Assembly (NCBI RefSeq): GCF_030159955.1
Contig: NZ_BSNK01000002.1
Location: 1,178,001-1,242,000, forward strand
Source: Algimonas ampicilliniresistens
Lineage (GTDB): Bacteria; Pseudomonadota; Alphaproteobacteria; Caulobacterales; Maricaulaceae
DNA length: 64,000 nt
Reading direction: 5' to 3'
Each line of letters starts with the position of its first letter. Position 1 is the stretch's first letter. The notes below the pieces were generated by a model, which had not been told where the DNA came from, searched no databases, and saw only the letters and a program-made list of their open reading frames with translations. The position numbers and the translations under genes were made by a program. Positions 1 to 5,238 of the stretch are shown one piece after another.

Positions 1-521
1 ACCGTACCGATGAAGCCGAGCGACGGGATTAGCCATGTCAGATAGCGGAGGATCGAATAGCGCAAGTCAATCTCGTGCATGTAAAGCTCAAGCGACGCGT
101 TCATCACGCCGAGGGCTTGATCCTCTTTCCCACTGACGCGGTATTGGTCGATCGTTCGGGCGATTAGGCGAGGCAGAAATGCATTCCGGGCGAATTTACG
201 GCTCGCAATACTGTCGCGAATTTTGCCGAGCACGTCCATATCGAGCCGCCGTCCATCGGTTGGGAGGTAACCCCGCGCGAGCTGGCTTTCCTCATCCTTG
301 GCTGCAGACCAGCGCAGCACGAGCTCGCCAAAGCCAATGAACAGTGCAACCCACATGATGTTTTGGATGGTGAACGGCCAGAAGCTGGCGTCGCTATCGA
401 GCAGGATTTCCTGCAGCTGCGGCCCAGTTGTGAAGCGGATAATGCCGATTAGTACGATCGCTGCGACAATGGCCACAATGAACACGAAGGTCCGTTTGAG
501 AAGGGTGTCAGTCTGGTTCAT
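1..521 (-). CDS. MotA/TolQ/ExbB-type proton channel subunit (3' part outside window)
   Basis: Translating the minus strand from the ATG at 521 gives 173 codons without a stop before the window edge, so the gene is partial. The start MNQTDTLLKR is followed by a membrane helix at about residues 10-29, a second at about 48-70 (FWPFTIQNIMWVALF), a cytoplasmic segment of about 90 residues, and then the beginning of a third helix with LIPSLGFIGTV. That last motif matches the pore-lining helix of MotA/TolQ/ExbB proteins (family knowledge). It lies 43 bp downstream of a gene for a MotB/ExbD-like anchored VWA protein, which is the expected partner type. The role is inferred to be the stator or channel half of an ion-driven envelope complex; the substrate or load is unknown. 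Confidence 0.75.
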   Translation of the reverse strand, partial: MNQTDTLLKRTFVFIVAIVAAIVLIGIIRFTTGPQLQEILLDSDASFWPFTIQNIMWVALFIGFGELVLRWSAAKDEESQLARGYLPTDGRRLDMDVLGKIRDSIASRKFARNAFLPRLIARTIDQYRVSGKEDQALGVMNASLELYMHEIDLRYSILRYLTWLIPSLGFIGT

Positions 522-564
522 TGCGTCAGTCCTATTCGGCTGAGTGTATTTTGGGAATGGGGCA

Positions 565-1548
565 TCAATCGCAGACCCCTTTGTCGGAACTGGCCAGCGC
601 CATGAACTGACCGCCATTGCGCGCGGCTAAATCTTCCATGAATTCGACAGTGCCGTCATAATCGAAATAGTTGCCGACGACGACGGTGTGGATTTCTTTC
701 CGCCCGCCATTCATTTGCGTCAGTTCGCGGACCAGACGCGTGGGCGACAGCCCATTATTGGCGCGTGGATTGGGTAACCCGTCTGAGACGAGGAAAATTG
801 CGTCACCCGGACCGGACAGCAATTTTTCAAAAGCATTGAGCATGGAAGCGGAACCACCGAACTGCCCAGTCAGACGTGCAGCAAACTGCTTGGCCTGTCC
901 TTGCGTGCCAGCGGCATTGATGTTGCGCAGGCCGCCGCCGGGCGGCCAGCTTTGCGTGCGTGGGCCACTATCGGTTTGTTGAAAACCCAAAATAGACAGC
1001 GCGTGATTATCTTGGAGACTATCGATGATACGGTCCACGGCGCGACCGACACTACGTTCGTGACCCGCCATGCAGCGGTTCATGTCGAGTGCGATGGTGA
1101 CATCGTCCTGCGCTGTTTTGAGGCCCAAAAAGCGGAACGATACGAGGGCGGGTTTTGGACTGTCCTGCGGGGCAGGTTTGTCTTCCATGGGTTCAGGTAC
1201 GGGTGCAGCGCGAATGACTTCGGCTTGTTTTTCTAACAGGGCCGCTTCCGCTGCGCGTAACTCTGCCAAGAGTTTTTCTGCGTCTGAGCGAATATCTGAG
1301 ACCGCTTGCGTCGACGCTGACCGCTTCGCCTCCAGTGCCTTGCGTTTCTCAACCGTTTCGACCGAACTATCTTCGGCAGCGCGGAGCAGGTCGCTGATCG
1401 CATTCTCAGGCGTGAGTTCGCGGATTTCCTTCTGATAATAAGGCAGCAGGATAATCGCGAGCAGGGCGAACGCCCCCATCGCGGCGGCGAACAAGTCGAC
1501 CGCGCTCATCGAGAAGACGTTCACCTCTCTGTCGGGACGTCTCTTCAT
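565..1548 (-). CDS. Membrane-anchored VWA-like protein with degenerate MIDAS and MotB/ExbD-like helix
   Basis: 327 aa. A short basic N-terminus precedes one helix at about 15-37 (SAVDLFAAAMGAFALLAII) with Asp18 at its cytoplasmic end, the position and context of the proton-carrying Asp in MotB (established family feature, alignment by eye). Residues about 45-115 are Ala/Glu/Lys-rich and look coiled-coil, followed by a Pro-rich linker and a C-terminal VWA-like fold from about 135. The metal site is degraded: the DxSxS motif reads DMNRC at 155-159, while the later Asp (VSDG, D256) remains. It overlaps the upstream VWA gene by four bases (ATGA), suggesting translational coupling. It is a likely non-metal-binding partner of the intact paralogue next door; the function is otherwise unknown. 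Confidence 0.7.
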   Translation of the reverse strand: MKRRPDREVNVFSMSAVDLFAAAMGAFALLAIILLPYYQKEIRELTPENAISDLLRAAEDSSVETVEKRKALEAKRSASTQAVSDIRSDAEKLLAELRAAEAALLEKQAEVIRAAPVPEPMEDKPAPQDSPKPALVSFRFLGLKTAQDDVTIALDMNRCMAGHERSVGRAVDRIIDSLQDNHALSILGFQQTDSGPRTQSWPPGGGLRNINAAGTQGQAKQFAARLTGQFGGSASMLNAFEKLLSGPGDAIFLVSDGLPNPRANNGLSPTRLVRELTQMNGGRKEIHTVVVGNYFDYDGTVEFMEDLAARNGGQFMALASSDKGVCD

Positions 1549-2483
1549 CGGGCTCTCCCGACAAAGTCGCCGCGATTATTATTGGCGAGTTCCTGCAAGA
1601 ACAGAGTGAGCTGCGGGTCGGATGTATAGTCACCAATGGCGACCGTATGGATCTCCGTTCGACCCCGGTTTCGGCGCGTAATGTTGGTGACGATATTGCC
1701 CGGATCGCCATCATCAGGTTGACCGTCGCTAATAAGGATGACCGCGCCGGGTTGTACGTTCAGCGCTCGGACCAGCGCGCTTTGCGTCGGTGTCCCGCCG
1801 CCAAATTGGCGTGGCAATCCCTGCACGAACCGCAGAGCGCCGCGAACTTCACCGGGCGTCGCCCGCGTCAGTGACCCTCCCGGCGGATAGACTGAATAGC
1901 TCGGGCCACCTCGATAGCCGAGAATAGCGAAGCGGTTGTCGGATTGCATCTGGCCGAGAATTTCTTCCAGAGCGGAGACAACATTGCCGGTATGCGACCG
2001 CATTGATCCGGACATATCGACCACGATCATCACATCTTTCCGAGATGTGCCAATACCGAGAATAGAAAACTCGACGCCGCGTCCAGTGGAGCGCGGAGGA
2101 TTAGGTATGGGGTCGGGTTCTGGGACGGGTTTCGGGATTGGGGGCGGGTCAGGAATTTCGATTTCCGCCGTCTGCTGTTGCACTTCGCGGATTTTCGCTT
2201 CGACCTCGGACATATTCTCTTCGGTCGTACGATATTGTCGATCAAGCAGGCGGATTTCAGCTTGGATCGCGCGGATTTCCGCCATTTCCGATTGGGTGGA
2301 CGAGGCAACCAGTCGGCGTTTCTCGACCATTTCCTCTAGCTCTTCCATCGACGTGTCCGTGCCGCCCAGCTTGTAATAGGGAAACAGGACCAGAACGATC
2401 AGAATGAATGCCCCGAGCGCAGCCGCGAACAGGTCCAAAGCTGAGATGGAAAAGACCGTAATGTTGCGGCGGCGTGAGCGCAT
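1545..2483 (-). CDS. Membrane-anchored VWA protein with intact MIDAS and MotB/ExbD-like helix
   Basis: 312 aa. The N-terminal helix at about 14-36 (SALDLFAAALGAFILIVLVL) has Asp17 at its start, closely resembling the neighbouring paralogue and the MotB pattern of Asp followed by small and hydrophobic residues. Residues 45-110 look coiled-coil, 111-130 are a Pro-rich PxP linker, and the rest is a VWA domain. The MIDAS metal site is complete: DMSGS (D156, S158, S160), Thr231 in GGGTPTQ and Asp253 in ISDG. VWA domains bind protein ligands through a divalent cation (family knowledge). The predicted topology puts the VWA domain in the periplasm. Operon position between a secreted protein and the degenerate paralogue supports a shared complex. 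The ligand is not evident. Confidence 0.75.
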   Translation of the reverse strand: MRSRRRNITVFSISALDLFAAALGAFILIVLVLFPYYKLGGTDTSMEELEEMVEKRRLVASSTQSEMAEIRAIQAEIRLLDRQYRTTEENMSEVEAKIREVQQQTAEIEIPDPPPIPKPVPEPDPIPNPPRSTGRGVEFSILGIGTSRKDVMIVVDMSGSMRSHTGNVVSALEEILGQMQSDNRFAILGYRGGPSYSVYPPGGSLTRATPGEVRGALRFVQGLPRQFGGGTPTQSALVRALNVQPGAVILISDGQPDDGDPGNIVTNITRRNRGRTEIHTVAIGDYTSDPQLTLFLQELANNNRGDFVGRAR

Positions 2484-2492
2484 GGCTGCGCG

Positions 2493-3281
2493 TTAGCCCA
2501 CCGAGCCAAGAATGCGAACGAGGGAATAAAGTCTTTCCTGCTGCGCTTTTTCACGCGCCTGCGCATCCATATCGCGCGCCAGCGTGGCGGCGTCCTGAAA
2601 GGCTTCGACGTTGACGCTTTCGTTTACGGCATCGTTGGAACGCGATAATTTAGTATCTAGGTCGCCCATGAACAGCGCTTCCAGTTCATCAACCTCATCA
2701 ACAAAACCAACATATTCAATGTCGTCCCGTTCGGTCACAAGTGACGCGGCATAGGCTTGCGCGGCATTATTATCGCCGCCGCCGAGACGATCCAGCGCCT
2801 CGGACAGAATCTGGCGCAGATAAAGCGCATCTTCCCGGATGACGATATCGGTGTCGGCAAGATCGGGATCAAACGCGAGCAGGCTATCGACTTGCCCTTG
2901 GACAAAGGGGCCGCAAAGCGCATCAAAATAGGCAATATGCGACATGCTGGCGACGGTTTGGGCCGGAGCAGCCTGACGAAGGACCGGGTCGGCGATGTCT
3001 TCGATTACATCGATCATCGGCCAGCCTGCGGGGAGGCGTCGGGTTTCATTCTCGGCCATGTAGCGCGCCATAAGAACGGAAAGTTCTGGCGAGACATCTT
3101 TGGCCAATTCTTGGCTAAGACGGAAGAAAACATAGCGCGACTCTGGGCTGTCATCGGGGAAACCCGACATCATCACTACGCATTGCTCCGTTTGCTCTGC
3201 CGTGAGCGTCACCGCAGGCACATGCGCCATGACGGATGTTGGGAGCAGCAACGCAACAGCGGTCAAAAAGAACTGTTTCAT
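2493..3281 (-). CDS. Secreted protein of unknown function in the VWA/channel operon
   Basis: 262 aa. The N-terminus MKQFFLTAVALLLPTSVMAH is a clear Sec signal peptide with cleavage after VMA predicted. The mature protein is acidic and helical in appearance, with no family I recognise. The C-terminal 60 residues (rich in Asp, Glu and Ala) look alpha-helical. It has two Cys in the mature region (QTEQC and DALC) that might pair. It starts within the stop codon of the upstream lipoprotein gene (ATGA, 3278-3281) and ends 9 bp before the VWA gene start, so it is almost certainly co-translated with them. A periplasmic subunit or ligand of the VWA proteins is an inference from context only. Confidence 0.6.
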   Translation of the reverse strand: MKQFFLTAVALLLPTSVMAHVPAVTLTAEQTEQCVVMMSGFPDDSPESRYVFFRLSQELAKDVSPELSVLMARYMAENETRRLPAGWPMIDVIEDIADPVLRQAAPAQTVASMSHIAYFDALCGPFVQGQVDSLLAFDPDLADTDIVIREDALYLRQILSEALDRLGGGDNNAAQAYAASLVTERDDIEYVGFVDEVDELEALFMGDLDTKLSRSNDAVNESVNVEAFQDAATLARDMDAQAREKAQQERLYSLVRILGSVG

Positions 3282-5158
3282 CCGGTTTGGTCTCCCAATC
3301 TAAAAGGCGAGGCAATCACCGATCCGGCCGGTGCTGCCCCCATATCTCGACCCGCCTTATACCGTCTGAGTGCAACAGAACCTGAACGCTCGACTTGAAC
3401 GGCTCCATTGGCCGATCCGGCCGAAAAGTTACCTTCAATGGAGTAAGAGCCCTCGGCTGCGCGTACGATCCGGTAGCCGGGGCCGTCGGCAAGACCGTTA
3501 CGGGCATAGCCATAATGTTCGACCAGATCTCCGTTTGCGTTACGGAAGACGCCCACGCCCGATCCGTTGGCGAGGCCGTTCTCGCAAGTCCCGAGCCATG
3601 TGCCTGGGTCAGACGGAGCATTATAGGTGCAACGCGTCGCAATCGTATCCAGCGCGCGCTGGTTCTCGGCGTAAAGTTCGCCGAGTTTGCTCTTTAAGTC
3701 CTCAAACCGGATGGCCGTAATCGTCTCGCTACTGTCGATAAGGTCGACTTGGATTTCCGTTTGCGCGGTTAATGCCGGGACGACGGATTGAATATAATTA
3801 TTGCCAACGCCCTTGGAGAGGCGGTTCTTACGCATCGCTTCTGTGGCCGAAAAGATGGCGCCTTGGATCATGGCTTGAGCGGCTAGTTTTTCGCCAAAGC
3901 TGTTATCGTCCTGACTGGCGATGGCAACGCCGCCAATCGCCGCCGCAAAGGCCGCTGCTGTGGCTATGTTTTGCTGGCGTGCGAGTTGGCGACGGCGTTC
4001 CAGAACCCGGTGCTCTTCCTTGAGCATATCCCGAACTTGAGCCCCCATCTCACCATTAATCACCCCGTCATAGAGCCGCAAAGATTGGACCGAGAGGTAG
4101 TTCTGCTCTGCGTCTAGAAGACGATCCGCATAGCGCAGGCGAGCCAGGTAATCGGGGTCGGTACTGCCAACTAGCGTCAGGGCGGCGAGGCTTTCATCAT
4201 AGTCGGCGATAACGTCCGCGCGGCGAAACATGGCCGCTTTGTTCGCGTCGGTTGCGTTGATCAATGTAATGATCTGGTTCGCAAACCCATTCGTGAAGGG
4301 GGCCTCTAAAATGTCGCCACTATCCTTGCTCATTTCGGCAAGCGCTGATCCATCCAACTGGATTTTTTCAATGGGGTAAGCGCGGACAGCGCCTTGCGCC
4401 CGACCTCGAAGTCCGGTGGACGCGGGGGACAGCCTCGGCGTGCCAGAAATATGACTGATGAAATCCAGCTCGGGGACACCCGCTTCAATCCGGCCCTCTT
4501 GCAGCGTCGTCGCATCCGTAATGCCCTGCGCATAGTTTTGACCGGCTGCGGCCCCGATTAAGGGCGCTGAGGCCATAAGAATGCCTTCCGTGCCGACGGC
4601 AGCGCGCGGGTCCGTGCGAACCGTTACGACGGGCGTAACCAGATCGCCGAAGGAGAGCGGCTTATCGCCCATCATCCGCTCCGCATCCGGATAGCTATAG
4701 GCGGTGAAATCAACGGTCACGACGGAGGCGAGGCTTTCTGCCTGCGTCATCGGCTCAGAGGTCAGTGTCCCGTCCGATGCTTTCATGACCTTGTGTGGGC
4801 TGAGCAGGACAGAATGCTCCGGCAAGCGCGCTGCCAGTTCCCGGTAAAGCGACATGGCGAAATAATTGGATTTCAATAAAATCGAGTTGGCCAAGGCTTT
4901 TGTCTCGACCGGGTCTGTATTCACACTCCCGCCGCCAATCGCCATCCCGGCATAGGCTTGGGAGAAATCGTCCTCAGCGTCATCCTCGACGAAAGCGGGA
5001 TATCGAACGATGGCGAGCGCGGTGCCAGATGGTGCGGTCTGCTGCACCGAAATCTCTGGCCCCGTTCCGAGCGCTGACGTTTGGATGCCCGTTGCCGTAG
5101 AGGCGCAGCCCGTCACCAGCATGGAGGCGCCGAGCAGGAAAATTAGGGACATACGCAT
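3278..5158 (-). CDS. Large lipoprotein with MORN-like C-terminal repeats
   Basis: 626 aa from the chosen start. The ATG at 5158 has GGAG seven bases upstream and gives MRMSLIFLLGASMLVTGC, a textbook lipoprotein signal with Cys18 as the lipidated residue; an earlier in-frame ATG at 5197 lacks a convincing ribosome site and would spoil the signal peptide. The central part has no family I recognise. A hydrophobic alanine-rich stretch (NIATAAAFAAAIGGVAIAS) occurs about two thirds along. The last 110 residues contain MORN-like units (GTWLGTCENGLANGSGVG, GYARNGLADGPGYR, GNFSAGSANGAV). It heads the operon with the secreted protein, the two VWA proteins and the channel subunit. An outer-membrane anchor or load for the machine is inferred. 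Confidence 0.65.
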   Translation of the reverse strand: MRMSLIFLLGASMLVTGCASTATGIQTSALGTGPEISVQQTAPSGTALAIVRYPAFVEDDAEDDFSQAYAGMAIGGGSVNTDPVETKALANSILLKSNYFAMSLYRELAARLPEHSVLLSPHKVMKASDGTLTSEPMTQAESLASVVTVDFTAYSYPDAERMMGDKPLSFGDLVTPVVTVRTDPRAAVGTEGILMASAPLIGAAAGQNYAQGITDATTLQEGRIEAGVPELDFISHISGTPRLSPASTGLRGRAQGAVRAYPIEKIQLDGSALAEMSKDSGDILEAPFTNGFANQIITLINATDANKAAMFRRADVIADYDESLAALTLVGSTDPDYLARLRYADRLLDAEQNYLSVQSLRLYDGVINGEMGAQVRDMLKEEHRVLERRRQLARQQNIATAAAFAAAIGGVAIASQDDNSFGEKLAAQAMIQGAIFSATEAMRKNRLSKGVGNNYIQSVVPALTAQTEIQVDLIDSSETITAIRFEDLKSKLGELYAENQRALDTIATRCTYNAPSDPGTWLGTCENGLANGSGVGVFRNANGDLVEHYGYARNGLADGPGYRIVRAAEGSYSIEGNFSAGSANGAVQVERSGSVALRRYKAGRDMGAAPAGSVIASPFRLGDQTG

Positions 5159-5238
5159 GTAGCGGCTCCGGGTGGGGTCATCATAGTTAGCGGGCATACC
5201 GCTACAATTTCAAACCTTAACCGGGTCTGAGTGTGTCG

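Follow-up and report, generated by a model that had tools for sequence, protein, structure and literature searches.

The window analysed here, a 64,000-nucleotide stretch of DNA (G000:C2:1178001-1242000, G000 being the window's own genome), begins within a minus-strand operon of seven genes that encodes, with a probability of roughly two in three, an inner-membrane motor that would belong to a so far uncharacterised trans-envelope machine. This motor would combine a channel subunit of the MotA/TolQ/ExbB family (A) with two different B-type proteins, V1 and V2, each carrying a von Willebrand factor A (VWA) domain. The operon extends beyond the left edge of the window (DNA covered by L002) and is transcribed in the order LP639, P262, V1, V2, A, a protein with the fold of formylglycine-generating enzyme (FGE) and a low-complexity protein termed 'acid'; adjacent genes overlap or lie at most ~45 bases apart. 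The part past the window edge provided the most informative new evidence. The initial annotation had reported a trio of genes here; V1, V2 and A, all on the minus strand and the last one cut by the left end, were found where it had placed them. The features are the following (window coordinates unless a contig is given):

1..521, minus strand, continuing to C2:1177736: 5' part of the A subunit, MotA/TolQ/ExbB family, four hydrophobic segments (Pfam, hydropathy)
3..5, minus strand: codon of T205 (numbered in the 293-residue open reading frame, ORF; part of GFIGTV), the first of two conserved pore Thr; that of the second, T242, falls beyond the window edge
565..1548, minus strand: V2, B-type helix, linker and VWA domain with a degenerate metal site
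1072..1086, minus strand: degenerate metal ion-dependent adhesion site (MIDAS) motif of V2, Asp-Met-Asn-Arg-Cys
1495..1497, minus strand: Asp18 codon of V2, proposed ion-binding Asp (alignments)
1545..2483, minus strand: V1, B-type helix, coiled-coil-like linker, Pro-rich stretch and VWA domain with an intact MIDAS
2004..2018, minus strand: MIDAS motif of V1, Asp-Met-Ser-Gly-Ser, residues 156-160; the other ligands are Thr231 and Asp253
2433..2435, minus strand: Asp17 codon of V1, proposed ion-binding Asp (alignments)
2493..3281, minus strand: P262, conserved, signal-peptide-like N-terminus, without Pfam match
3278..5197, minus strand: LP639, lipoprotein, lipobox Cys31, without Pfam match
C2:1176186-1177736, minus strand, outside the window: FGE-fold protein
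C2:1175203-1176168, minus strand, outside the window: low-complexity 'acid' protein

The proposed mechanism, likely as far as the rotor, builds on the observed gene content, gene linkage and conservation of the Asp, Thr and MIDAS residues. Five copies of A would form a pentamer, whose pore would hold two N-terminal helices, one from V1 and one from V2, as a heterodimeric rotor. Ions, probably protons, passing between the helix Asp (D17 of V1, D18 of V2) and the two Thr rings of A would drive rotation, a mechanism carried over from MotAB, ExbBD and TolQR. The rods would place both VWA domains in the periplasm, where V1, with its complete metal site, probably takes hold of an acidic residue on a partner protein, and V2, whose site is lost, probably serves as a fixed scaffold, so that the pair would work asymmetrically. 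The likely receivers of the force are the FGE-fold protein, membrane-anchored and with a repeat stalk, and LP639, presumably in the outer membrane, in a layout that resembles GldLM and the GldK ring on which it acts; the main ground for regarding the FGE-fold protein as a receiver is the analogy with GldM, which contacts GldK. The final job of the machine could be force at the outer membrane, secretion or surface movement. Judged from sequence, the operon probably encodes a real and functional motor driven by the proton motive force (PMF).

Full-length A matches Pfam MotA_ExbB at E=5.9e-11 (42.6 bits, cut-off 22.9; residues 151-267 of the 293-residue ORF), and its 3' part, still unread when the initial annotation proposed a MotA-family channel, holds nothing that contradicts this. 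Its start is probably at window position 521, residue 33 of the ORF, since the ORFs of its relatives are about that length. All 11 aligned rows (the window's own A, nine relatives and Escherichia coli ExbB) keep T205 and T242, which align with the Thr residues of ExbB that line the pore and have a role in ion passage. A Thr ring of the pore is stated by Williams-Jones et al. 2025 (PMC12204202). A phmmer comparison of A with the PDB returned zero matches at E<=0.1. The window's own genome encodes four further MotA_ExbB genes besides A, which we assign to TolQ, two ExbB-type proteins and MotA on the basis of position and neighbouring genes. Overall, the reading of A as a MotA-family channel that has the two VWA proteins for its B subunits has good support, although the similarity expected of the V helix in profile searches was borne out only in part.

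V1 and V2 each begin with a single helix bearing a MotB-like motif with Asp17 and Asp18, respectively, as the initial annotation had described. This Asp is invariant in a 16-row alignment of V proteins and in a 28-row alignment of helices, the latter covering six B proteins encoded at loci that gave no VWA match. The motif with its Asp was found in 85 of 87 candidates, the search pattern itself containing the Asp, so that this count shows only that no member failed. The 86th candidate (L037 8533-9561) carries a variant motif outside the pattern, the 87th (L039 14364-16343) was rejected as an unrelated secreted VWA protein, and four of the 86 motif carriers are repeats (L124 = L051, L127 = L052). 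In HHalign, a profile of 79 helices aligned with MotB at a score of 11.46 (E=0.028), placing the family Asp on the proton Asp of MotB; the best of 60 column-shuffled MotB controls scored 8.61, and five other membrane-helix profiles scored <=5.0. Such profile-profile scores are noisy, one of 60 shuffled ExbD profiles reaching 20.6 and MotB against ExbD itself 2.2. Homology of the V helix to MotB is thus no more than suggestive. Behind the helix, coiled-coil models matched V1 residues 43-109 with E values of 0.01-0.08, which hints at a coiled coil.

B-type helices with the Asp motif were also found on other periplasmic parts, in L032 9975-11331, L034 3094-4643, L031 6218-6958 and L039 7554-8474. 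These proteins are without a MIDAS-like motif, a VWA match is absent in the three that were scanned, and in L032 and L034 they occur in pairs; the B-type helix seems to be a carrier of exchangeable output domains.

The family is sparse yet spread, by sequence matches, across several families of genomes. At the level of the order, V1 was found in 13 of 300 genomes (E<=1e-8) and V2 in all 13 of them. In the window's genus, eight genomes hold the pair and at least two (G662, G751) are without it. In the class, 15 of 289 genomes matched (E<=0.001) and 13 hold a family locus; G278 and G126 are without a family member, and G007, G087 and G123 have only B proteins without a VWA match. In the phylum, a profile survey matched 21 of 398 genomes (E<=1e-12), five of which were dropped as only the VWA part of other proteins matched; 16 remain, including the window's own, G396 being cut by the contig end. 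The nearest V1 sequences share 92% identity (G741) and 90% (nearest named locus), Algimonas arctica KCTC 32513 is another carrier of the operon, and the host appears close to Algimonas.

Two kinds of loci were distinguished. In the tree of A, 18 rows form a group on a long branch (clade I, support 100/100); the remainder (the window's relatives, L028, L030, L034, L035 and L039) shows no resolved order, its long branches being flagged. The rows L129 and L130 of this tree are identical (one ORF of the window's own genome) and the own MotA is absent, with no bearing on the clade-I split. The window's A shares 40-47% identity with L028, L030, L035 and L039, and 19-22% with clade I. Among the 17 loci of the window's kind (counts that omit L124 and L127, and in which several loci stem from closely related, non-independent metagenome-assembled genomes), LP639, P262 and the FGE gene are each present in 16 and the acid gene in 15, each miss falling at a contig end; the acid matches lie kilobases away in a few loci and may reflect low complexity, and in L051 A follows V2 after 1.3 kb. 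In clade I, the gene order is c5, c4, c3, FGE, A, Vb, Va, and the 18 loci contain c3 and c4 in 16 cases, c5 in 15 and FGE in 17. By eye, c4 is a lipoprotein (lipobox seen in L036 and L118) and c3 has a membrane helix, together with a weak TPR match.

Two clade-I loci of the same phylum and another class, L118 and L119, encode an additional gene, c20 (434-451 residues), between A and Vb, and three more common genes (c17-c19), lipoprotein-like by eye, after Va. Five loci of the window's class contain A/V relatives that adjoin signalling genes (L028 1892-7802, L029 992-4521, L030 2276-11671, L034 6-7121, L035 5923-9553). PP2C phosphatases, Ser/Thr kinases, FHA proteins and trypsin-FHA proteins are encoded nearby, one trypsin-FHA protein having a peptidoglycan-binding domain and the L029 phosphatase being recognised by eye only. 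This suggests that the A/V motors of these five loci could be switched by protein phosphorylation.

The VWA domains differ between the two B-type proteins. The initial annotation had both proteins end in a VWA domain behind a coiled coil: the VWA domain of V1 is clear (VWA_3, 1.2e-11), that of V2 is weak (VWA_3, 2.5e-4, under the cut-off), and the coiled coil stands as no more than the hint given above. The MIDAS ligands of V1 (D, S, S, T, D) are all kept in 17 of 17 loci. The corresponding positions of V2 are D, N (15 loci) or S (2 loci), C, A and D, and the site is intact in none of the 17. These labels were assigned by a script that sorted V1 and V2 by MIDAS motif, and gene order and profile labels agree, V1 being the upstream gene everywhere. 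The pair thus appears lopsided, since the metal site is complete in V1 and not intact in V2. In clade I, DxSxS is kept in both Va and Vb (17 of 17 each, leaving out Vb of L037, missed by the pattern, and Va of L120, absent from the contig), and Ser replaces Thr in Va.

The tree of V proteins separates {Va,Vb} from {V1,V2} with support 99/98. In an approximately unbiased (AU) test on 39 of the 75 rows of the tree, with groups named after the tree had been seen, the groupings of Va with V1 and of Va with V2 were rejected (p-AU 0.0029 and 0.019). A single duplication being rejected, the two lineages gained their pairs through separate duplications. A third group of the tree contains the pair of L035, together with L033, and L032 and L034 each encode two paired B proteins that lack a MIDAS-like motif, the scanned member of each pair being without a VWA match. 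This repeated return to a design with two B proteins argues for, and strengthens the idea of, a heterodimer. The same evidence bears on the alternative that A forms two separate homodimeric motors, A5V1_2 and A5V2_2, with different tasks. Each V helix has an Asp of its own, and the AglRQ/AglRS motors of Myxococcus have been discussed in this way, heterodimers being described there as unsettled (PMC9389320). However, both genes occur in 13 of 13 genomes, they overlap by 4 bases in the window, and pairs remade by separate duplications are a better fit to an obligate pair, so that homodimeric motors are unlikely.

The FGE-fold partner accompanies A in both kinds of loci. In the window's kind, its gene directly follows A in 16 of 17 loci (in the exception, L045, the contig ends inside A; in L053, the FGE gene is cut), and in clade I it directly precedes A in 17 of 18; the window's own genome has only two FGE-fold genes. 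In clade I, L110 (4570-6202, a 6.2-kb contig) lacks FGE and L109 (45-3056) has a short FGE 1.2 kb off, possibly by decay or an assembly fault. Among solved structures, the closest relative of the FGE-fold protein is PvdO (7e-37), followed by formylglycine-generating enzymes and PorK/GldK; NCBIfam likewise ranks PvdO first and GldK second (4e-21). A cysteine pair that we take to be the catalytic motif of formylglycine-generating enzyme was found in 0 of 15 and 0 of 17 FGE partners of the two groups and in 6 of 31 background proteins. A formylglycine-generating enzyme was therefore rejected as the identity of the partner, and the lack of catalytic cysteines points to a binding module. The FGE-fold protein of the window's kind has an N-terminal membrane helix, and both clade-I FGE proteins that were scanned contain PEGA repeats. 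When placed in a tree together with 31 background domains from Alphaproteobacteria, the partners form two groups (100/100 each) on opposite sides of branches supported at 99/96, which suggests two recruitments of the FGE partner.

A lipoprotein gene is also present in both operon types, namely LP639 and c4 (16 of 18 clade-I loci). The lipobox Cys31 of LP639 is invariant in 14 of 14 rows, and its C-terminal glycine-rich repeats are MORN-like by eye. LP639 and c4 may be distant relatives; a relationship of P262 or the acid protein to c3 or c5 found no support, the acid/c5 match being nine columns at the signal peptide.

Several results weigh against the proposed motor and its partners. (i) The helix match to MotB has an HHalign probability of 0.88%; a comparison with PDB profiles gave seven weak chains with no motor among them, the 28 helices matched zero motor proteins in Pfam, and the score against the ExbD profile was 1.8. 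Of the similarity to MotB or ExbD that had been envisaged for the helix, the ExbD part was consequently abandoned and the MotB part is retained at the strength given above. (ii) An FGE match was found in 0 of 7 other loci on the V1/V2 side (L028-L030, L033-L035, L039; contigs of 5.8 to 17 kb), and one origin of both FGE partners was not rejected by the AU test (p-AU 0.077). (iii) LP639 and c4 align over 74 C-terminal columns (E=2.9e-4, probability 40%), but the unclaimed pair FGE and c3 scores nearly equally (4.8e-4, 32%). (iv) With its patchy distribution (13/300) and rarely kept flanks, the operon may be mobile between genomes. (v) Of the eight genomes with the V pair that were examined, five (G000, G741, G801, G885, G711) encode an ExbD away from any MotA_ExbB gene, and none of the six examined without the pair does; in the window's own genome this ExbD lies at G000:C1:1560875-1561243. 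Where present, this unplaced ExbD could be the partner of A. Its tie to the V pair lowers confidence in the proposed motor and raises that in an arrangement in which V1 and V2 stay outside the pore as side-binding transducers like TolA or TonB, and A uses an ExbD encoded elsewhere.

VWA transducers of that side-binding type, the first vWA family of Williams-Jones et al., have been described (PMC12204202). Against such an arrangement, the remaining three of the eight genomes (G666, G670, G915) encode V1, V2 and A together with exactly three ExbD, one beside a TolQ-type gene and two beside ExbB-type genes; all three being placed, none is left there for this A, an argument stronger than the helix homology but carried by three of the eight genomes. 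The V helix also has its invariant Asp and weak alignment to the MotB helix, and the SHLS motif and His of the first vWA family (motif in PMC12204202) are not visible in it. Side-binding transducers therefore seem quite improbable, and V1 and V2 are probably the B subunits of A. Among the genomes without the V pair, G751 encodes five ExbD, the two surplus ones lying next to an additional MotA_ExbB gene.

The genes around the operon encode an ABC transporter, an inositol monophosphatase and DUF3108/helicase proteins; flanking genes are shared with 5 of 16 other loci and differ in 11 of 16. These changing flanks, the patchy distribution and weak PADLOC matches (A to ZorA at best 3.8e-4, V1 and V2 to ZorB1 at 0.004 and 0.025) are what could be expected of a Zorya-type anti-phage system. 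P262, LP639, the FGE-fold protein and the acid protein, however, have no PADLOC match at E<=0.1, so that there is no ZorC, ZorD or ZorE among these four, and neither the neighbouring genes nor V1, which has zero matches in the phage and plasmid collections, point to defence; Zorya or another defence system was rejected and is highly improbable. One clade-I V protein likewise had zero matches in plasmids, and an FGE query matched 173 plasmid records, none with 80% coverage, the ten listed covering 36-55%. In PHROGs, the operon proteins matched nothing but, for the acid protein, weakly, a family of unknown function (0.003). A phage or plasmid origin of the operon was rejected on the lack of V1 matches in either collection; movement from chromosome to chromosome could still have occurred.

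The proposed motor bears on an open question, namely how PMF motors drive different tasks at an outer membrane that has no energy source of its own. The operon would represent a motor with a naturally asymmetric rotor and a conserved set of partners, and these partners, together with the lopsided arms, could make its job testable. Should the FGE-fold protein receive the force in the way that GldK does from GldM, it would connect a machine class known from computation only with a solved secretion motor and offer a direct route to the function of the machine. As a more tentative proposal, possible but short of likely, the operon would encode a new trans-envelope machine in which an obligately heterodimeric, lopsided rotor, with one live and one dead metal-site VWA arm, acts upon two partners, an FGE-fold pseudo-enzyme and a lipoprotein of the outer membrane; at least two proteobacterial lineages would have put this GldLM-GldK-like plan together separately, and PMF motors might, as a general rule, act through FGE-fold partners.

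The arrangement is not undescribed, contrary to the initial annotation. In a paper by Williams-Jones et al. (Mol Biol Evol 2025, PMC12204202), 'TPH-vWA' proteins of unknown function were predicted to sit in pairs inside TolQ-like pentamers, and were defined by a vWA domain with an Asp-bearing transpore helix, an adjacent tolQ-like gene, the absence of tolR and occurrence mostly in pairs. The core idea is therefore already in print as a prediction. By description, the window's trio agrees with this definition, the family's own sequences not having been compared: a TolQ-like gene, no tolR, and paired vWA proteins with a transpore helix and a conserved Asp. The TPH-vWA clusters were sampled from Idiomarina homologues (PMC12204202), which need not equal clade I. 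Beyond the main text of that paper are the FGE-fold partner, the PEGA stalk and the metal site; the terms FGE, sulfatase, SUMF, PEGA, formylglycine and MIDAS have 0 occurrences in it, figures and supplements apart. VWA and von Willebrand have 0 occurrences in the available text of PMC12505986 and PMC9389320, and no paper joining FGE/SUMF/PEGA or kinase/PP2C/FHA to VWA motors was found in the open-licence literature without preprints. Apparently new here are the seven-gene setting with its conserved partners, unreported as far as the literature search reached, and the lopsided VWA pair; the separate duplications and the FGE-fold neighbour of A in two distant motor groups are further additions.

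Among the known systems, AglR-AglQ-AglS of Myxococcus provides a precedent for two different B proteins beside one A, with an Asp in each helix, but AglQ and AglS are ExbD/TolR-domain proteins and not VWA proteins as here (PMC3169522, PMC9389320). Zorya ZorAB is a similar MotA/MotB-type pair, with weak profile matches, and differs in that the operon has two VWA B proteins and none of ZorC, ZorD and ZorE. GldM is a non-VWA protein and the single B subunit of its motor. Membership of the type IX secretion system GldKLMN was rejected, the GldK model scoring 75.8 bits on the FGE-fold protein against a cut-off of 350, with no match to the GldL, GldM or GldN models among the seven operon proteins at E<=0.1 (SprA was not searched). 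There is nonetheless a likeness to GldKLMN: according to the consulted part of PMC8986121, GldLM is a 5:2 PMF motor whose GldM contacts, through its periplasmic part, the outer-membrane lipoprotein GldK, and the operon likewise joins a putative PMF motor to a partner related to the FGE fold of GldK. Unlike in GldKLMN, the FGE protein encoded here carries a membrane helix at its N-terminus, and a different gene product serves as the lipoprotein.

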